A stretch of 64,000 nucleotides of DNA from Candidatus Bathyarchaeia archaeon (GTDB taxonomy: Archaea; Thermoproteota; Bathyarchaeia; Bathyarchaeales; Bathyarchaeaceae), in contig DATETJ010000009.1 in the NCBI GenBank assembly GCA_035283685.1, positions 124,001 to 188,000 on the forward strand. Direction: 5' to 3'. Below, one piece after another: positions 12,413 through 22,459 of the stretch (within the stretch, counting starts at the first letter, position 1; each line of letters opens with the position of its first letter). Made by a program: the position numbers and the translations under genes. The notes under the pieces are model-generated. The model worked only from the letters and a program-made list of their open reading frames with translations. It did not search any database and was not told the DNA's origin.

Positions 12413-12907
12413 TCACTCTGGACCGAATCCACCTATCCACATTATGCCTGCGGCAGTTACTGGGGTGGGTGGAGGAACTGGGAATGGCGTTGTCACGCCG
12501 CGGACGTGGGCGTCGCTTTCAAGCAGGTATGCCCATGCTCCTGTGGCAGCGGTTATCCAGCCGTTTGACTTGAATTCAAAGCTCTTGAAGCTCCATACGC
12601 CTTCTTGATACATTGTGATTGATCCGTAGGTTGTCGTGATGATCCATGTTTCGGAATAATGTTCTGTGATGCCGGGAAAACTAGCACTGATCAGGCTGAG
12701 TGTGACAGTTCCTTCGATGTCTCCTGAAATGGTTCCAATCCACGTGTATGGCGACGAGCCCCCAAAGCCAACCCAATCCCAATTGAGCTGAAAAGACACG
12801 TCGCATCTAAGAGGCTCGTTGGGCTGTGCTGAAACTGCGGGCATCGACAGCGCGGACAGAAGCGCAACGAAACACAGCATGAGGGGCGTTAATAGCATCT
12901 TTCTCAT
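12413..12907 (-). CDS. Small secreted protein, hypothetical
   Basis: 164 residues from the ATG at 12907, fixed by GGAGGTGA about 8 bases upstream. The N-terminus MRKMLL plus a hydrophobic core ending AVSAQP is a classical cleavable signal peptide (cleavage about residue 28). The mature region is rich in Trp, Gly, Ser and Thr in alternating beta-strand patterns (IGTISGDIEGTVTLSL, TGAWAYLLESDAHVRG), suggesting one small beta-barrel or sandwich. The C-terminus is Pro-rich. I do not recognise the family. Its 5' region carries leader copy A, almost the same as the one ahead of the giant gene upstream, so the two are probably co-regulated. Confidence 0.8.
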   Translation of the reverse strand: MRKMLLTPLMLCFVALLSALSMPAVSAQPNEPLRCDVSFQLNWDWVGFGGSSPYTWIGTISGDIEGTVTLSLISASFPGITEHYSETWIITTTYGSITMYQEGVWSFKSFEFKSNGWITAATGAWAYLLESDAHVRGVTTPFPVPPPTPVTAAGIMWIGGFGPE

Positions 12908-12946
12908 TTCTCTTTCACCTCCTTTCTCCATTCATTTTCTTTCATC

Positions 12947-13148
12947 GCATTTTTCCATTCTTTTTTCAATTATTCAACAGCGCCTCAGGAAGAACCGGCT
13001 ACCCGAGAGGCTCCGAAAGCACAATTCAACCATAAGGATTGTCTAGAAAACTACGCTATGGGGAAAATACATAGGCTTTTTTCCCGAGAAGGGAAAAACA
13101 ACGATAAGACACAGGAAAAAAGAGAGGATTTAACTTTCTTCTTGCCGA
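12947..13148 (-). promoter_or_regulatory. Duplicated ~200-nt leader element, copy A
   Basis: This 202-base block aligns end to end with 18750-18952. On the minus strand it ends about 40 bases before the ATG at 12907. Conserved parts include a hairpin (tttttccc 13078-13085 with gggaaaaa 13091-13098), a CAATCC-TTATGGTT-GAATTG hairpin, and a GCCTC/GAGGC stem. The repeat of position relative to two secreted-protein genes suggests a cis-acting RNA leader or shared regulatory region. A duplicated gene remnant is the main alternative. Confidence 0.6.
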
Positions 13149-13210
13149 GTGAGCCACAGCTAAGTTGAGTGAGTCAGAAAAAAGAGGGGGAGGTTTGGGT
13201 TTAAAGGAGT

Positions 13211-16200
13211 CTACAGGTTTTGTTCGAGTTGGTCTATCCAGTCTTCGGCAGGAATGCTCCATGACCATGAGTAGGCGTTTTTGATTGTGCGTTGGGAGTA
13301 TCCGAAAGCGGTTTTGTAGTAGTCGACGGCTTTTGAGAGCCATCCTTGGGCAAGCCAGTAGTCGCCTTGGACGATGGAGTTGTCTGCGTAGGTGATTTCG
13401 TTCCAGAGCCAAGCTCGACTGTAGCCCAGTCGCGATTCTGAGTCTTCAACTGCGTCGACGGATAGGGCTCTTTCTGATTGTGCCTCGAACTTGGCTTTGC
13501 TTGACATCACCGTGTTTATTGCATCGAGCTGCTGGATGATTTGGTCTGCGGTGTTGCTTGGCATGTAGCCGTATTTGACCCAGTTCTTCAGGTCGTTCTT
13601 CAGGTATTCAAGTCTGCTTACTGCGAATTTGAGGGCGATCAAGCCTTCTGGTTTGTCGTCGAAGCCGTGTTTGACTGTGTCAAGATAGTTTATTGCGTTT
13701 GTGATGTCGGTTTCTGTTCTTGCAAGGTCGCCTATTATCCGGTCGTGCTTGTACTGATCAATGTTTCTGTCTTCATAGAGAGTTGACACGTGTTCTCGCA
13801 GAATTCTGATTCTCTCAAGTGCGTTTGTCAGGTGGTAGTCTAATACGAATATGCTTGCTTGTGTTGTCGCTTTTGACTGCGCCCATCCAACTGATGTGGC
13901 GCTTGCGTTGAAGTATTTGAAGCCAGGTGTCGCGTATCTTGGGATGGTTGCTGTCACCGGGATGGTGATGGAGCCTCCTTCTGGGATGAAGACTTTTTGT
14001 GTCGTCCATGAAAACCATTGTAGGTGGGCTTGATTTTGGAGCGGTATTCCGGTGTTGGTCAGCGCTATTGTTATTGCGTCGTCGAAGTTTTCGTTGTTGT
14101 AGACTTCAACGTTGAGGTCAACAGGGAACTGCGTCTGTGTGGTCATGGCTGGCATCGTCAGGGTCGAGGCTTCTGGTATGACGGCAACGGTCAAGCTGCC
14201 CTCTGGCGTGGTTGGCAACATGGGTGTGAAGTCAAGTGTTAGTGTAGCGTCTGCGCTGTCTGTTGCGCTCGGTGAGTTTTGTGAGGCTGCGGTCACCCTG
14301 AAGTTGTAGTCTTTTAGTATGAAGGCAGTTTCCGACGGTGGCGTGACGAACAAGTCTACTGTGGCTGTTTCGCTTGGGTTGACTGTGATCGATGCCTGAG
14401 AGAAGTAGAACCATGTCGGGTCTAGTCCCTGCAAAGTTGGGTCGTAGGTGTCGGGCACGTTTCCAGTGTTGTGGATACTTACGGTGTATTTTGTGGTTTT
14501 GAGTTCGTTGCCCGCTACTTGCGGGTCAATCGAGATGTCAACTCCATAACTTGGAATAACAACTGAGATGGTTGCTGGCGTGGTTGGGAAAACTCCCATT
14601 AGGCTGTCGTCAGATCTGTCGGTGTCGTTGTCAAAAGCTGTTGAAAACCATTGAATTCTTTGGTTGAGGTGCGCGGTCCATTCGCTCCTTAATATGTCGT
14701 ACCAGTAAACTCCTTGGGAAGAGCCTTGTGGGAGCATCCAATTCCAGTGTGAAAACCCGTCGGGGGATTCGTATCTGTAGTAGAAGTACACCCAAGAAAT
14801 ATCACTGTCGTCTGTCCATCGCACTGATAGTCGAATGTCTGATGGATATTCATGTGTGTATATTTGTCCGTCAGGCGGATTGAGAGCTGATCCTGCTGGC
14901 GCATCTGTGTCGTCATCGTCCACTATTGCAAGTCTCCCGCGGGCAAAACTGGAAAGCTCGGGATTGCTTACGCTTTCAACATTCACTCTGAAGTATGTCC
15001 ATATTGGAGGTTTGACCAGGTCCCAAAAGGGGGGATCCACAAGCGGCAGGGAAACACTCAACGTTCTGTTCGTAGCTCCGCCTGGTCCCAACGTAACTGG
15101 AAGTTTGGACAGCTTTTCGTAAGGGTTGTCGAACTCAAAATCCAGACCGTGTAATTTTACGTACCAGTTGGTTGTTATCCTGTAAGTTTCCGTGACAGCG
15201 TTAGGGTTGTAGATTGCCACTCTCCATCTTACTGTCTGCCCTGGCTCACCGTATTGACTGCGCTTTTCCGGCGGAGAGATAGTGACACGCGGGTTCGCGT
15301 TGAGTGTAATGTATTGTAGCGCGTTGTCTAGGATTAGCGTGGTCTGTTTTGTTGTTTCTACGTGTCCTAGTCTATCGATGCTGTAGTAGCTTATGTTGTG
15401 CGGGCCGTCACTGTACGCCCTTGTGAGAGGGTTGAATTCGTCGCCTAGTACTATTGGCTCTCCCGTGCATAACAGGTCCAATGTGGGATGCCTAAAGCAT
15501 CTCATTGCTGGTCTTGGACTCATGTAGTTTTTCCACTCGCCGTCGTCGACCTTGTAGTAGGTTTCAGGTGCGCCCGAAACGTCGTCCACGTTGAATTCCA
15601 TGACTGTGTCCGACGTCACGTAGGTGTTTCCCAACGCGTCAGTGAATCGAGGTTCGTCGACCTCCAGTGTTGTCTGTGGTGGGCCGTTGTTTAGGTGCAA
15701 GATCTGTACGTGTCTCTGTTCTGTTCCGTCGCCGTACGGTTCCTGGGTTTGGTAGCCTTGTGCAGCGTATTCGAGAATGTATACCCCATCCTCAAGAGGA
15801 ATAGGAAAAGGCGAGCATATTAGCATGTCATCTGTAAAGTGGCATTCGACACCCTCAAGCTTAATTGAGACTGTGGCGGAGTTTGCTTCGAACCTGCCTC
15901 GGCTCCATGAAGGCATGGGATCGCCTACCTTCCAGTAACGATATTGTAGGCGGTTGTAGTCGAGTCCACTGGCAGTCAATGTCAAAGACGTGTCAGATGT
16001 GATGACCGCTTTTCCATCACTTGAGATGTAACTAGGGCTTCCAAAGGTTAGACGACTCGACGGCGTGACATATGGATGACCAACTTCGTATATGCGGTAT
16101 CTAAGAGAGAAACAGCTTCCTTGGGGTGCTTTCCAGTCTTCGTAGCAACCATCGTGATTCCCCTCATTACTGTATCCTTCCCTTGCGAATAGGTTGTGAT

Positions 16201-18697
16201 ACCACGGTCCGTCGCCTTCCTTTTTCACTCGGTCATAAAGCTGAGGATCGTGGGAATGCCATGATTCGTCCCAACGATAAGGTGCTTCCATCCAGTATTC
16301 GCCTGATGTGCTCTCTGAGATCACCCCGAAGTCGTGCCACGAGTAATACCTCTGTTCGGCTACTCCAGGGTTATCGTCCACGTAACCGTGAACTAAATCC
16401 TTGTCATCTTCATATCCTGAGACCCACAAGTGAATGTTGTCGGATGGAAATACGGCAACATATTGGGACTGATCCAGGTAGTATCTGTCGTCTGTCACAT
16501 CGCCTGGAAGAGATAGCCAAAACCATTTATCATTAACGTTTGCTGCCAGACGATATTCTCCCTGATCGCCCCAGCCTTCTAGTTTGTCCCTTATACTGAT
16601 GCTATCAAATTCAATGTAGAATTCCCGAGCTGGTTGTAAAGGCACGTAGTCCCAGCGAGCCTCAATAGAGCGCGAATAAGTCTGGCCAACGTAGGTGTCC
16701 AAGGGCAATTTGACGTGAATTTTGCTTTCATTTGGCAAGGGAGTGACTATTGGATTATGTCCTCCGCCGACAGGGCCAGAAAGTATGCGATATTGAATCT
16801 CTGGATAATACCCTGGATAGATTTCAGGAGGACGTGGAGGCATTTGAACATCAAACTCCCAGTCTTGCCAAACCTCAACGCTGCCCATCAAGTTGGACCA
16901 CGGCTGGTATTGTGCATCTTCTGCCGTGATACAAGCGTCTCCATGTCCAGGATGATGAATATCGTTGCACAGATATTCGTGCGTGGCTCCTCCGCCTCGC
17001 GTATTGAACCAGATGTCAGTTCGTACTCCGGGAGTGTATGTTCCCCATAGGCTGCTGTCTGAGGACCATCGCATAGGCACTTGCCGCTGGGTTGCAATGC
17101 CGACTACAGGATGGAACTCGGTCTTGGGTTCGTGTCCGCAATCCCAAATCCACAGTCCCGTAAGCCAAACTCGATCACCTACGCTTGGCCAAGCGAACTG
17201 GTGGAAGTAGTCTGTTTCCCACTCCATGTGCATTTCATGGTCACCCAGATTTTCTACTTGCCCGTAGTCTGGGCTTACACCTGATAGCAGATGGTAATAT
17301 TCGGGGTCAAGCCTTACGTTGAAGACAAAGTCTTGAGACTCGTGGTTGAAAGGATGGTCCATCGAGGACACCCTAGCATATCTAACCTCGCCAGTTGCCT
17401 GCTTTGGCATGTTGTCACCGTCATACACGGGCATCCATGTGTCACCCCACGGCATCTCTGTAATGTACTTCTCCCACCAGTCTATGAGCGGCTCACAACG
17501 CTCATAGAAGTTGCTCGGCCTGGAAAGCTGAGCTTTCACAGGTTCAATCCTGAACGAAAAGACCGACAGAAAGGACGCTGCGAGAACAATGGCAAGAACC
17601 ACCACCGACCCTTGATTGACGAGTCTACGCATCGGCAAGAATCCTCGCACGCCTGACCTTTTCTTCGCGCAAACAATGGTAGCAGCGAGACCAGAGAAAG
17701 CCAAAGTCAACTCAACAGGATATCTCCTTTCTGCGATGACTGGAACCGATTCGACGCTCTGCAATGGAGCTGCAAGCACTTTGTCAATGCTCGCTTTCAA
17801 CGTTGACTCAGTGTTGAAGCCTCTGAAATCACGATACAAATACCCTTTTGCACTCTTTTCAAAAATCAAGAGCATCGTTGGAAATCCGTTTACGCCAAAC
17901 TCTCCTAACACCTGTGTGTTCTCGTCACCGTTGACGCGAATGAAAACAACTTCATCCTTGTACAAAGTCTCGAACTCGTTGACAATCGGCGTCTGTTTGG
18001 CACAGTAATGACACCAGTCTGTGTAGAAATACACAAACGCCATCTTGCCCGAATTCAACACTGGATCAATCTTTGGACTCAAAGAATACACGCTGGACAT
18101 GTAAGGGCCTTCAGAACTCACAAACCGCATCGTAGGCACAGTAGAGTGAAACACAACATAGGCAACCAGCAGACCAAGCGAAACAACAACCAGTACCGTT
18201 GTCCACCACTTAACTCTAGCCATGCGCTTCATTCCAGCAAGCTTACTGGACATCGAGCCAAGCATTGACGAACCAAGAATCACTGCGAACATGCCGAGAG
18301 CATATACAGATGGCGTGAAACCGAGAATCGTTGGCGGTCCACTGCACGTTGCGCTTGTTGCAGCGCACAGCAGAGAGTCAGAGGCGAAAGATTCAATGTA
18401 GATCAGGTAGCCAGAGACCAGTACTCCAAGCATCGAAAACGCGGCAACCGCCTTGATCACCGTGCCCTTCATCTTAAGCTTCAAGCCGACCAACGAAGCG
18501 ATCAGAACGGTCACTGCGAGACCTCTCAGAATCCAACAGAAAACACACGGTTGAGCAACGAAAGCCTGCAGGGCAAAGCTGCCCAACACAGCAAACGAAG
18601 AAAGAGCCAGTGTTATGCCCAAGAAACCATTCTGAAGTCCTGAAACAGATGAATCGATAGCTTCCGCTGACACTTCGAAATTTTTGAAATCTTTCAA
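13211..18697 (-). CDS. DsbB/VKOR-like + thioredoxin + giant extracellular domain fusion
   Basis: 1828 codons in one uninterrupted frame. Residues about 20-185 form a polytopic DsbB/VKOR-like domain with CVFC (Cys51/Cys54) and a second Cys pair (Cys111, Cys118). A thioredoxin domain (about 205-310) follows with DWCHYC (Cys229/Cys232) and cis-Pro273. Two more hydrophobic helices come next, the second (about 363-382) preceded by MRRLVNQG and ending VKAQ like a signal peptide. The remaining ~1440 residues are extracellular: Trp/Tyr-rich beta domains with scattered Cys, several Ig/CARDB-like repeats (about 900-1600), and a helical C-terminal domain. The called start is TTG at 18697 with GGTGAG 4 bases upstream; see findings on an alternative. 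A reasonable role is disulfide formation in its own or other exported domains. Confidence 0.8.
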   Translation of the reverse strand: MKDFKNFEVSAEAIDSSVSGLQNGFLGITLALSSFAVLGSFALQAFVAQPCVFCWILRGLAVTVLIASLVGLKLKMKGTVIKAVAAFSMLGVLVSGYLIYIESFASDSLLCAATSATCSGPPTILGFTPSVYALGMFAVILGSSMLGSMSSKLAGMKRMARVKWWTTVLVVVSLGLLVAYVVFHSTVPTMRFVSSEGPYMSSVYSLSPKIDPVLNSGKMAFVYFYTDWCHYCAKQTPIVNEFETLYKDEVVFIRVNGDENTQVLGEFGVNGFPTMLLIFEKSAKGYLYRDFRGFNTESTLKASIDKVLAAPLQSVESVPVIAERRYPVELTLAFSGLAATIVCAKKRSGVRGFLPMRRLVNQGSVVVLAIVLAASFLSVFSFRIEPVKAQLSRPSNFYERCEPLIDWWEKYITEMPWGDTWMPVYDGDNMPKQATGEVRYARVSSMDHPFNHESQDFVFNVRLDPEYYHLLSGVSPDYGQVENLGDHEMHMEWETDYFHQFAWPSVGDRVWLTGLWIWDCGHEPKTEFHPVVGIATQRQVPMRWSSDSSLWGTYTPGVRTDIWFNTRGGGATHEYLCNDIHHPGHGDACITAEDAQYQPWSNLMGSVEVWQDWEFDVQMPPRPPEIYPGYYPEIQYRILSGPVGGGHNPIVTPLPNESKIHVKLPLDTYVGQTYSRSIEARWDYVPLQPAREFYIEFDSISIRDKLEGWGDQGEYRLAANVNDKWFWLSLPGDVTDDRYYLDQSQYVAVFPSDNIHLWVSGYEDDKDLVHGYVDDNPGVAEQRYYSWHDFGVISESTSGEYWMEAPYRWDESWHSHDPQLYDRVKKEGDGPWYHNLFAREGYSNEGNHDGCYEDWKAPQGSCFSLRYRIYEVGHPYVTPSSRLTFGSPSYISSDGKAVITSDTSLTLTASGLDYNRLQYRYWKVGDPMPSWSRGRFEANSATVSIKLEGVECHFTDDMLICSPFPIPLEDGVYILEYAAQGYQTQEPYGDGTEQRHVQILHLNNGPPQTTLEVDEPRFTDALGNTYVTSDTVMEFNVDDVSGAPETYYKVDDGEWKNYMSPRPAMRCFRHPTLDLLCTGEPIVLGDEFNPLTRAYSDGPHNISYYSIDRLGHVETTKQTTLILDNALQYITLNANPRVTISPPEKRSQYGEPGQTVRWRVAIYNPNAVTETYRITTNWYVKLHGLDFEFDNPYEKLSKLPVTLGPGGATNRTLSVSLPLVDPPFWDLVKPPIWTYFRVNVESVSNPELSSFARGRLAIVDDDDTDAPAGSALNPPDGQIYTHEYPSDIRLSVRWTDDSDISWVYFYYRYESPDGFSHWNWMLPQGSSQGVYWYDILRSEWTAHLNQRIQWFSTAFDNDTDRSDDSLMGVFPTTPATISVVIPSYGVDISIDPQVAGNELKTTKYTVSIHNTGNVPDTYDPTLQGLDPTWFYFSQASITVNPSETATVDLFVTPPSETAFILKDYNFRVTAASQNSPSATDSADATLTLDFTPMLPTTPEGSLTVAVIPEASTLTMPAMTTQTQFPVDLNVEVYNNENFDDAITIALTNTGIPLQNQAHLQWFSWTTQKVFIPEGGSITIPVTATIPRYATPGFKYFNASATSVGWAQSKATTQASIFVLDYHLTNALERIRILREHVSTLYEDRNIDQYKHDRIIGDLARTETDITNAINYLDTVKHGFDDKPEGLIALKFAVSRLEYLKNDLKNWVKYGYMPSNTADQIIQQLDAINTVMSSKAKFEAQSERALSVDAVEDSESRLGYSRAWLWNEITYADNSIVQGDYWLAQGWLSKAVDYYKTAFGYSQRTIKNAYSWSWSIPAEDWIDQLEQNL

Positions 18698-18749
18698 TTT
18701 CTCACCAACTGCGCTAAGACAAACGTTCTCTTCAACAGCTTTTTCAAAT

Positions 18750-18952
18750 GCATTTTTCCATTTCTCCTTTCAATTTTATATCAGCGCCTCCCAGGAAGCA
18801 CCGGCTGCCCAAGAGGTTCTGAAAGCGCAATCCAACCATAAGGATTGCACTGGGAAACTAGGCTGTGGAAAAATACCTAAGCATTTTTCCCACGAGGGGA
18901 AAAACGACCATAAGACATAGAAAAACACGGGAATTTACCATTTCGTTGCCGA
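18750..18952 (-). promoter_or_regulatory. Duplicated ~200-nt leader element, copy B
   Basis: 203 bases, collinear with copy A at 12947-13148, ending about 50 bases ahead of the TTG at 18697. It has a perfect 7-bp GCAATCC/GGATTGC hairpin with the loop TTATGGTT, and an 8-bp tttttccc/gggaaaaa hairpin (18884-18891 with 18897-18904). The 54-base core (18793-18846) differs from copy A at 7 positions. At its 3' end an AAAGGAG and ATGGAAAAATGC are also present; the ATG motif is shared with copy A. Confidence 0.6.
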
Positions 18953-18988: not shown

Positions 18989-21900
18989 CTATGTCAGAAG
19001 ATCTGGCGCCTTTTCTTTAACATACCTTCTAACCAACTCTTTCTCGTAATGAATTCTAGCCCTCAAAATATGTCCCCCTCTGCCCCTCTCCCCAAGAAAA
19101 GTCTCCAAGTCCACCAGCCCCTTCCTCTGCAACTCAGACAAACCATGACCCAAACGACCACCAGCTCCGTACAAACTCCTCTTAGACACCCCAGCTCCCT
19201 TAATGATCTGAGGAAAACTCCTCCAACCAGACTTCTCAACGCTTAATCTCTGCTTCACACAATCCTCGACAAAGGCGTCAACAAGATAGTTGAAAACAAC
19301 CTGAGACACCTTAGACTCAAACTTAACAACGGGAAGAATCTTAGCCTCTTCAACTGTAATCGTCTTGAAATTTCCCAGTTCATCAACGTAAACCACTTGA
19401 GGGGACAAGCTGACGCCGACGATGTCTGCGATCTGAACCCAGATGCTAACCGACTCCACAGAAAGAGGATCCAGTCTTTTACCCCTCATGTTCAACGAAG
19501 CACCCTCCAATGCGCAATAAGAAGGCACCCTCAGAACTTTACATCTAGGAGGCACAAGATCGTCTATCCTAACTAACAAGCCGGGTCTTTTGCCAACGTT
19601 GACCAAGTCAAGCTTGACCTCAAACTCTTCACTCGGGACAAATTCCTTTGGAACAGAAAAACTAGCCCTTATATTTACAGACTCAAAACCATTCAACCCT
19701 GCCGCCCTCCCTGTCAAATCCGGCGTCGATCGATTGATCGCGTCACGTACGGCTCTTGTCTCTTGAGATGTCAATAGAGTGCTCTTGACGACTGGGTCGT
19801 TGAGTTGTGACGCTACCGCTTCTATAAGAGCTATTGCCTTGACATAATGCTCGTTGGCTTTTCGTGCGTTCCCGTGTTTCTCCTCCAAGAGACCAAAAAA
19901 ATAATGGATTTGCCAGAGCTGGGTTGGGCTGCCCATCTGCTGCGCCAAATTCAAAGCCTCCTCTATCAACTTGACTGCTTCCTCTATGTTGCCCATTTTC
20001 GCGAGCACTTCAGCCTTTAACCTAAGGCCCTGGGCTACGTACTTCTTTGCGCCAGCCTTCTTAGATATGGCTAGGGAACCTTCGGCAAATTCTAGTGCTT
20101 GATGGCAATCGCCTCTTGCCAGTGCAATCACTCCGCGACCGAGGAGTATGCGAGTTTCGATGCGCCACCAGCCCACTCGATGTTGTTGATACTGGGTGAT
20201 TACTTCTCTGAAGTATTTTTCTGCGTTCTCGTAGTCATTCTTGTACAAATAATCCATTCCTAAGTTTAACAAGGACATAGGCACTGCACCACTTGCCCTG
20301 CTTTTTTGGTGTCCTCTAGCATTCTCTATTGCTTCGTTATTGTATTTCAAGGCAAGTTCGACGTTTGATAAGTCATGATAAATCCAACCGAGAGTGTTGA
20401 GGATCATGCAAAATAGAGACACATCACCATAATCCCGGGCGAGTTGAAGAGACCTCCGCCCAGTTGAGATGGCTTCATTGTATTCTCCTCTACCCGCAAG
20501 AACCATGCTCAAGAACCATAATTTGTACATTGTTAAAGGGATGCTACCGACTTCTTCTGCTAACGCAAGTGCTTTGTTGAGGTTTTCCTCAGCTTGATTG
20601 AATTCGCCTTTCCAGTTATAGTAGAATCCGAGCGTCTGGAGATTGCCGGCCTCGGTGATTCTGTCACCAACTTCTTTGCATATCCTAGAAGACTCTTCAA
20701 GCCGCACGCGGGCTTCATCTATTGTATCCAGCCCCCACACAAGTGCATAGCCAATCGCTCCTAGACTTCTAGCTTCTAGAGGTTTGTTGCCTGTTCTTCT
20801 AGCCGTTTCAAGCGCTGTTGTAAGATGCCGCATAGCTTCTTCCATTTCTCCGAAATATGTCTCATAAGAGCTACCTAACCAATAGTGTGCTTCTGCGATC
20901 ATTGATTCGTCCTTGACGTTTGTTGCATTTTGCAGCATGGAATTGAAATCGCATCTGGCTTTCGTCTTTTCATCTTGGTTCAGCCAAGCTATGCCTCTGT
21001 TTTTGTAGATTTTAGCAAGGTTTTCGCTTGTGCCAAGGCTTGGGGTTTTTTGAGCGGTCTCTAATGCTTCATTTAGATAATCTATCGCTTGTGCATTTGC
21101 ATGAATATTTGCAGCTTTTTCACCAAGTTTAAGGAGGTATTCAAACGCTTTTTCGGAAACACCCCCTTCGATAGAGTGAAGAACCATGTCTGCCATGTAA
21201 CCGTCCGTGATTTGTTTAGTGAGGGCTTGTTCAATACAATGCGCAATTTTGAGATGGTAAATCCTCCTAAGTTCGGTGGGCAGACTTCCGTAGATGACTT
21301 CTCTAATTTTGTGATGCGTGAACTCAAATTCAGAATCGATTGAATGTATTAATCGATGTTTCTGCTCAAGTTCAACCAGCATTCGCAAAACATCGGCTAC
21401 ATCTACTGTCAATGCTCTACTCAAAATGTCGGGGGTGAAAGAATGGCCACAAACGGCAGCGACGTCCAAAAGCTTCCTTTTTTCGCGATCTAGTCTTACA
21501 AATCTTCGAGTGATAACTTCGTGGACCTTGGAAGGTATCCCCATTTTTTCCATTGAACCAGTGAGTGTCCAGCGTTCATCTATCTTTGAAAGGTGACCTT
21601 CATCTGCAAGCATGTTGAGTATTTCAATTGCGAACAAGGGGTTGCCTTCGGTTTCTTCAAAAAGCTTTTCCTCGAATTTCTCATTCAACGATGAGCGAAA
21701 AATCGACTTTAAAAGCTCCGGGAAATCATTTCGCCTTAAACGGGTCAACTCCATTTCGGTCAGAAGGTCTTCTCGGCTCATTGAGAACATAGTTTCTTCT
21801 AGGGGATGAGGTCTCTCTCCCTCAGCATGAGCAAGTTCTTCCAGCCTGTATGTTCCAATGATGAGAAGCCGAGAGTTTCTGCATTCTCTTGACAAGTAGT

Positions 21901-22459
21901 GAAGCAAAGCTAGGCTTAATGGATCTGCCCAATGCAAATCATCCAAGAACAAAATCAGAGGCTCTTGGGCAGATAGCTGAAGAAGAACTCTTGCGGCTGC
22001 TTCAAAGGTTCTATCTCTCTCGATTTGAGGAGTCAAATATGGTTCATGTTTCTTAGGTTCCTGCGCAAATTCCGAATCCTCAAACCATCCAGTGGTTCTC
22101 AACTGCTTCGATATAACGGATTTCGTTTTTCCATCGCTTATGGCGGATATGTAACTGTTGAAGGCCTCTCTGAAAGGAAAATAAGGGATGTTTGCCTCGC
22201 TTAAGCACCAACCTGCAAAAATCCCTGTTCCCTTCTTCTTCGCAAGAGTCAGAAACTCGTTGGCAAGTCTAGTCTTTCCGACCCCAGCCTCTCCAGAAAT
22301 AAACACCGTAGTTCCTTTTCCATTCAAAGCAGAATAAAGATGCTGCGTAAGTTGCTCAATTTCATGATCCCTACCGACCAGTGCTGGCTCAGCAGGGAGT
22401 CTAGACATGCCATAACCCATTAGAAAAAGCCACGAACTCTCTGAAAAGGTTTGTCCCAT
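18989..22459 (-). CDS. AAA ATPase-TPR regulator with C-terminal winged helix
   Basis: 1156 residues from the ATG at 22459; ATGs at 22420 and 22408 are also possible and none has a ribosome-binding site. An AAA_16/STAND-type ATPase is present (Walker A GEAGVGKT at 56-63, Walker B LILFLDDLHW near 168), followed by helical arms and about ten TPR units (about 430-880). A beta domain of about 100 residues follows (about 925-1035), then a basic winged-helix-like C-terminus (GVSKRSLYGAGGRLGHGL, LSELQRKGLVDLETF). The layout resembles MalT-like STAND transcription regulators, in which ligand binding on the TPRs releases the ATPase. It lies directly upstream of, and co-oriented with, the two secreted-protein genes, so it may regulate them; this is inference. 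Confidence 0.85.
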   Translation of the reverse strand: MGQTFSESSWLFLMGYGMSRLPAEPALVGRDHEIEQLTQHLYSALNGKGTTVFISGEAGVGKTRLANEFLTLAKKKGTGIFAGWCLSEANIPYFPFREAFNSYISAISDGKTKSVISKQLRTTGWFEDSEFAQEPKKHEPYLTPQIERDRTFEAAARVLLQLSAQEPLILFLDDLHWADPLSLALLHYLSRECRNSRLLIIGTYRLEELAHAEGERPHPLEETMFSMSREDLLTEMELTRLRRNDFPELLKSIFRSSLNEKFEEKLFEETEGNPLFAIEILNMLADEGHLSKIDERWTLTGSMEKMGIPSKVHEVITRRFVRLDREKRKLLDVAAVCGHSFTPDILSRALTVDVADVLRMLVELEQKHRLIHSIDSEFEFTHHKIREVIYGSLPTELRRIYHLKIAHCIEQALTKQITDGYMADMVLHSIEGGVSEKAFEYLLKLGEKAANIHANAQAIDYLNEALETAQKTPSLGTSENLAKIYKNRGIAWLNQDEKTKARCDFNSMLQNATNVKDESMIAEAHYWLGSSYETYFGEMEEAMRHLTTALETARRTGNKPLEARSLGAIGYALVWGLDTIDEARVRLEESSRICKEVGDRITEAGNLQTLGFYYNWKGEFNQAEENLNKALALAEEVGSIPLTMYKLWFLSMVLAGRGEYNEAISTGRRSLQLARDYGDVSLFCMILNTLGWIYHDLSNVELALKYNNEAIENARGHQKSRASGAVPMSLLNLGMDYLYKNDYENAEKYFREVITQYQQHRVGWWRIETRILLGRGVIALARGDCHQALEFAEGSLAISKKAGAKKYVAQGLRLKAEVLAKMGNIEEAVKLIEEALNLAQQMGSPTQLWQIHYFFGLLEEKHGNARKANEHYVKAIALIEAVASQLNDPVVKSTLLTSQETRAVRDAINRSTPDLTGRAAGLNGFESVNIRASFSVPKEFVPSEEFEVKLDLVNVGKRPGLLVRIDDLVPPRCKVLRVPSYCALEGASLNMRGKRLDPLSVESVSIWVQIADIVGVSLSPQVVYVDELGNFKTITVEEAKILPVVKFESKVSQVVFNYLVDAFVEDCVKQRLSVEKSGWRSFPQIIKGAGVSKRSLYGAGGRLGHGLSELQRKGLVDLETFLGERGRGGHILRARIHYEKELVRRYVKEKAPDLLT

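Follow-up and report, generated by a model that had tools for sequence, protein, structure and literature searches.

MalT-like STAND proteins are activators, and the MalT/AfsR type combines an AAA/NTPase, MalT-like TPR repeats and a C-terminal DNA-binding domain, a LuxR/GerE HTH, in a single large protein. Riboswitches and the other cis-regulatory RNAs of Rfam are conserved intergenic elements with hairpins ahead of a gene. TrmB-type regulators carry a winged helix on a sensor; TrmB of P. furiosus binds a palindrome at BRE/TATA, TrmB sites have the form TACT-N3-AGTA or TGM, and repression of this type, by blocked polymerase recruitment, is documented (PMC4158304).

Here we describe a locus from a stretch of 64,000 nucleotides of Candidatus Bathyarchaeia DNA (the window) that resembles each of these systems in part. 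Its regulator has the MalT/AfsR layout of an AAA_16 ATPase and MalT-like TPR repeats (both by Pfam), a further segment and a C-terminal DNA-binding domain. However, that domain is not a LuxR/GerE HTH, and other members of the family have no ATPase but a FIST or a TPR module by itself; the protein thus has the NTPase and TPR parts of a MalT/STAND regulator without its HTH, and we do not assign it to that class. As in TrmB-type regulators, a winged helix on a sensor is paired with a palindromic operator, here predicted to lie at or near the BRE/TATA of the targets. In contrast to TrmB, the operator reads GGAAAAATnCCTAnnTATTTTTCC, not TACT-N3-AGTA or TGM, and no family in Pfam, not even TrmB, matches the winged helix, so we do not place it in the TrmB family. 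Like cis-regulatory RNAs, the element is conserved, intergenic and accompanied by hairpins, but it matches no Rfam covariance model and its conservation follows a DNA-binding domain. We conclude that the conserved core is very probably a DNA operator, likely placed over the core promoter and bound by the winged helix of the regulator at 18989-22459. The computed parts of this reading are dyad conservation, the link to the regulator, distance to the start codon, the predicted fold and the co-change of residue and base.

Table 1. Features of the locus, in coordinates of the window
Feature	Position	Strand	Basis or remark
Regulator gene, 1156 aa	18989..22459	-	Pfam; homologues adjoin dyads
C-terminal winged-helix DNA-binding domain (predicted), 113 aa	18992..19330	-	AlphaFold, Foldseek
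Extra inverted half-site TTTTTCCC, 5' of operator B	18897..18904	-	Sequence; 5' arm of tttttccc/gggaaaaa hairpin
Dyad, putative operator B, GGAAAAATGCTTAGGTATTTTTCC	18867..18890	-	PWM score 34.1, top score in window; dyad kept at ~20 other sites
Inverted repeat CAATCC-TTATGGTT-GGATTG, leader B	18828..18847	-	Possible RNA hairpin; leader z -3.19
Gene B, 1828-aa membrane/exported protein, DsbB-like and thioredoxin domains	13211..18697	-	Candidate target of operator B
Extra inverted half-site TTTTTCCC, 5' of operator A	13091..13098	-	Sequence
Dyad, putative operator A, GGAAAAAAGCCTATGTATTTTCCC	13061..13084	-	PWM score 29.8
Inverted repeat CAATCC-TTATGGTT-GAATTG, leader A, one mismatch	13022..13041	-	Sequence; leader z -1.43
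Gene A, 164-aa exported protein	12413..12907	-	Candidate target of operator A

The original prediction described two collinear blocks of ~200 bases, each 40-50 bases upstream of a gene for an exported protein. Both statements were borne out by BLAST of the host genome and by the gene positions. Blocks 12947-13148 (A) and 18750-18952 (B), on the minus strand, are collinear and 81% identical over ~175 bases (E=6e-38), end ~40-50 nt from ATG 12907 and TTG 18697, respectively, and precede proteins with hydrophobic N-termini. They are the only copies of the repeated block in the host genome (2.28 Mb, 12 contigs), and because the genes flanking A and B are unrelated, we consider them a duplicated regulatory segment rather than a gene duplication. 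A third copy, C, lies in genome G036, which belongs to another family of the same order, 5' of a gene whose product is exported and at least 931 aa long (L004/L082). Both B and C are found directly 3' of the same gene, which codes for the regulator of ~1150-1190 aa; the proteins of the window and G036 share 73% identity over their C-terminal ~100 residues.

By reading the DNA behind distant relatives of the regulator C-terminal domain (47-55% identity), we found that the core of both blocks is a 24-bp near-palindromic dyad with an inverted half-site upstream. The tttttccc/gggaaaaa hairpin noticed earlier consists of this third half-site and the left half of the dyad, and a third, inverted half-site precedes the dyad in seven sites (A, B, C, L083, L084, L085 and L060). 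At up to two mismatches, the host genome (2.28 Mb) holds dyads A and B and one more, 149 bp 3' of the sole other detected paralogue of the regulator; a search at three mismatches gave no control hits. A pattern based on TTATGG showed no excess over the control in the host genome. The second regulator/dyad pair of the host (dyad at L081:4109-4132) stands 5' of a gene for a 79-aa soluble protein, whose small family is also present in L087, L089 and L100.

Of 163 genomes from the order, 13 bear the regulator and 9 of these have the dyad, against 1 of the 150 that lack the regulator, the co-occurrence expected of an operator of an adjoining winged-helix regulator (Fisher p=4e-11, a value to be read with the regulator/dyad pairs as non-independent, since the relatives form homologous cassettes of similar spacing). 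Relatives of the winged helix come with the dyad in Bathyarchaeia, and also in records that bear the labels Baldrarchaeota, Methanomethylicus and Thaumarchaeota. Sites left out of PWM building still scored highly: 28.8 for L096 (with L059, from Bathyarchaeum), 30.3 for L083, 27.4 for L084, 26.3 for L060 (Ca. Baldrarchaeota), 22.8 for L065 (Thaumarchaeota) and 21.3 for L061 (Methanomethylicus). Shuffled DNA (2.56 Mb) yielded two scores of at least 20 and none of at least 23. At many loci the dyad follows the regulator stop codon by 149-160 bp, the usual range being 65-200 bp. The regulators in G009 and G027 have no dyad nearby. In UBA233 (G027), the regulator contig lacks the dyad and three dyads are located on other contigs, each 5' of a gene for an exported protein; on this arrangement, they are a predicted small regulon in trans. 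Pattern matches in G047 and G243 were rejected as chance, there being no detected regulator in either genome and no sensible target.

The C-terminal domain of the regulator is modelled by AlphaFold as a winged helix (pLDDT 86, pTM 0.82), and a Foldseek search with this model returned mostly general winged-helix proteins at the top (best E 0.0045). Its recognition helix begins VSKRS and its wing is RGRGG, which is present in every aligned member; insertion of this wing in the minor groove of an A-tract is plausible. The sensor modules fused to the same winged helix vary, being an AAA ATPase with TPR, TPR only, or FIST. In L092, a Pfam FIST/FIST_C match replaces AAA/TPR, and the N-termini of L090 and L061 are similar to it. 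In L065 (Thaumarchaeota-labelled) and L106 (a closed genome from the phylum of the window), a TPR regulator carries the winged helix N-terminally, and in both the upstream dyad faces a divergent gene for an exported protein. We found no archaeal paper that combines a FIST domain with a winged helix-turn-helix, and none on Bathyarchaeia regulons. We conclude that the regulator represents a previously uncatalogued archaeal one-component family with a predicted winged helix.

The outer base of the operator and one residue of the recognition helix seem to change in concert. In the motif [VI][SP]X, lysine at X pairs with outer base C in 12 of 12 cases. Where the outer base is A, X is phenylalanine (three related cases) or valine, which makes four cases in two lineages. 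L097 has glutamine with site ACAAAAAT...ATTTTTGT and outer base G, and L106 has proline with a weak site, CGAAAAT...ATTTTCG, and also outer base G. The exception is L065, where leucine is found with outer base C. Comparing lysine and non-lysine members against the outer base gave Fisher p=0.002, uncorrected for phylogeny and with L097 and L106 outside the test. This co-change is an indirect sign that the regulator may bind the dyad directly.

In nearly all sites, 27-58 nt separate the end of the dyad from the start codon, and most have a Shine-Dalgarno motif in this interval; the distance is 16 nt in L106 and 32 nt in L105, both weak matches, and 73 nt in C. Measured this way, most sites fall in the putative promoter region of their targets. 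The archaeal TATA box is 26-27 bp 5' of the start site (PMC4158304), and taken with the distance to the codon, this makes an overlap of dyad and core promoter probable. A promoter profile of the window covered 11 genes, too few for a TATA peak to show. In L060 and L083, gene A has orthologues of about 47% identity that also follow directly on a dyad, with leaders of 40-52 nt. For A and B themselves, ~100 nt or more separate dyad and start codon, and their leaders are ~100 nt longer than those of their relatives, a difference that the operator alone leaves unexplained.

A hydrophobic N-terminus was found in 15 of 23 targets, the rest being mostly soluble proteins of ~77 aa, several of them mutually related. 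The expectation of more copies 5' of exported proteins held in that further archaeal copies exist, and their targets are mostly, not always, exported. At L095:5040-6776, the gene behind the dyad codes for an exported protein that contains collagen triple-helix repeats. Gene B joins a DsbB-like disulfide-forming membrane domain and a thioredoxin to a long remainder of extracellular appearance in a single protein, and the AlphaFold model of gene A has a pLDDT of 39. The 1828-aa frame of gene B is without an ATG or GTG start, and coding-like sequence extends 5' of TTG 18697 to a stop (18697-18770, minus strand). ATGGAAAAATGC, common to leaders A and B, is one base out of the gene B frame at an A5 run, which may reflect a homopolymer error, a leader peptide or a frameshift. 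In leader A, a short ORF (MKENEWRKEVKEK; 12908-12960, minus strand) ends in a stop that shares bases with the gene A start codon.

The original prediction suggested that the block, which it could match to no riboswitch class, could be a cis-regulatory RNA that coordinates an exported system. No Rfam model matched at the gathering threshold and nothing meaningful appeared at permissive thresholds. Both inverted repeats that it named are present, although the stem of copy A (CAATCC/GAATTG) carries one C.A mismatch, and the second, loop-related motif, TTATSGT, does recur in the A/B alignment. Copy A folds no better than shuffled sequence (z -0.95), and copy B gave z -3.28. Leader C (L082:2795-2867, minus strand) contains a 17-bp hairpin with TTATGG at the loop (z -4.31) on a stem unrelated to those of A and B. 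A covariance model built from A, B and C (R1) recovered only these three as strong matches among the 163 genomes of the order, and its weak matches in G027 (E 0.05 and 0.09) are dyads. A loose hairpin pattern likewise returned A, B, C and scattered chance matches across the order; the leader hairpin is absent from relatives and occurs only in A, B and this one distant copy. The predicted covarying pairs did not emerge for the dyad, since its covariation score was equalled in 72 of 500 shuffles and its count of paired cells in 34 of 500, while the pair counts over 24 sites are symmetric in 79.6% of cells.

Hairpins in the 5' UTR could control the exported-protein genes at the level of translation or of termination, which would make the block a leader RNA. 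This would suit the good folding of leader B, the very good folding of C, the TTATGG in loops of unrelated stems and the long distance from dyad to start codon in A and B. However, it is the dyad that is widely conserved; it changes along with the recognition helix, its pairs covary no more than shuffles do, and the gene A orthologues keep the dyad on leaders of ordinary folding and length, so the RNA reading fails for the core. In addition, leader A folds poorly, hairpin 1 has no compensatory change among A, B and C, and the spacer varies in relatives. Because the dyad lies close to the start codon, relatives' leaders are short and mostly unstructured, and the pairing of regulator and site recurs across several archaeal phyla, we consider it improbable that the block is chiefly an RNA switch; the element stands as a cis-regulatory element of exported-protein genes whose core is a DNA dyad. 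The 3' part of the block, the hairpin with the TTATGGTT loop, may still act as leader RNA within this subgroup. A two-layer switch, in which a family-wide DNA operator is joined in A, B and C by a leader hairpin bound via its TTATGGT loop, would explain why three copies, drawn from two families, share a loop on differing stems, and each of the three also carries TTATSGT 5' of the operator. We regard it as unlikely, though less so than the RNA reading of the whole block, with only three copies known, of which two are duplicates from a single genome, a weakened stem in copy A, and an upstream TTATSGT that would not be transcribed if the dyad acts as the promoter.

The two remaining explanations concern position and descent. 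The usual location of the dyad 65-200 bp 3' of the regulator stop codon would fit a transcription terminator of the regulator gene, but copy A, L083, L084 and L085 are not behind a regulator gene, the dyad lies upstream of the regulator and faces away from it in L096 and L065, no T-run follows it, and it tracks the recognition helix; we hold a terminator to be very improbable. Even less credit is due to a recent neutral duplication and nothing more, which would account for two 81% identical copies in the host genome but not for a core kept in other families and phyla where the flanks are not.

For the favoured reading, a DNA operator bound by the winged helix, we propose the following model. 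The regulator would bind the dyad, probably as a dimer, with a further contact at the third half-site where there is one. Once bound, it would block TBP/TFB or RNA polymerase until the sensor part responds, and the sensor modules would thereby put the adjacent gene and a few distant genes under control of the sensed signal. Repression is probably the mode of action and is slightly favoured over activation, which keeps a substantial share because STAND proteins of the MalT-like kind act as activators.

Our literature searches turned up no regulon described for these uncultured archaea. The analysis yields a family of regulators together with its DNA site, likely targets, which are mostly secreted proteins, and a candidate rule that relates a recognition residue to an operator base. 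It also suggests that one DNA-binding domain keeps its operator across archaeal phyla while the sensor is exchanged among AAA/TPR, TPR and FIST modules.
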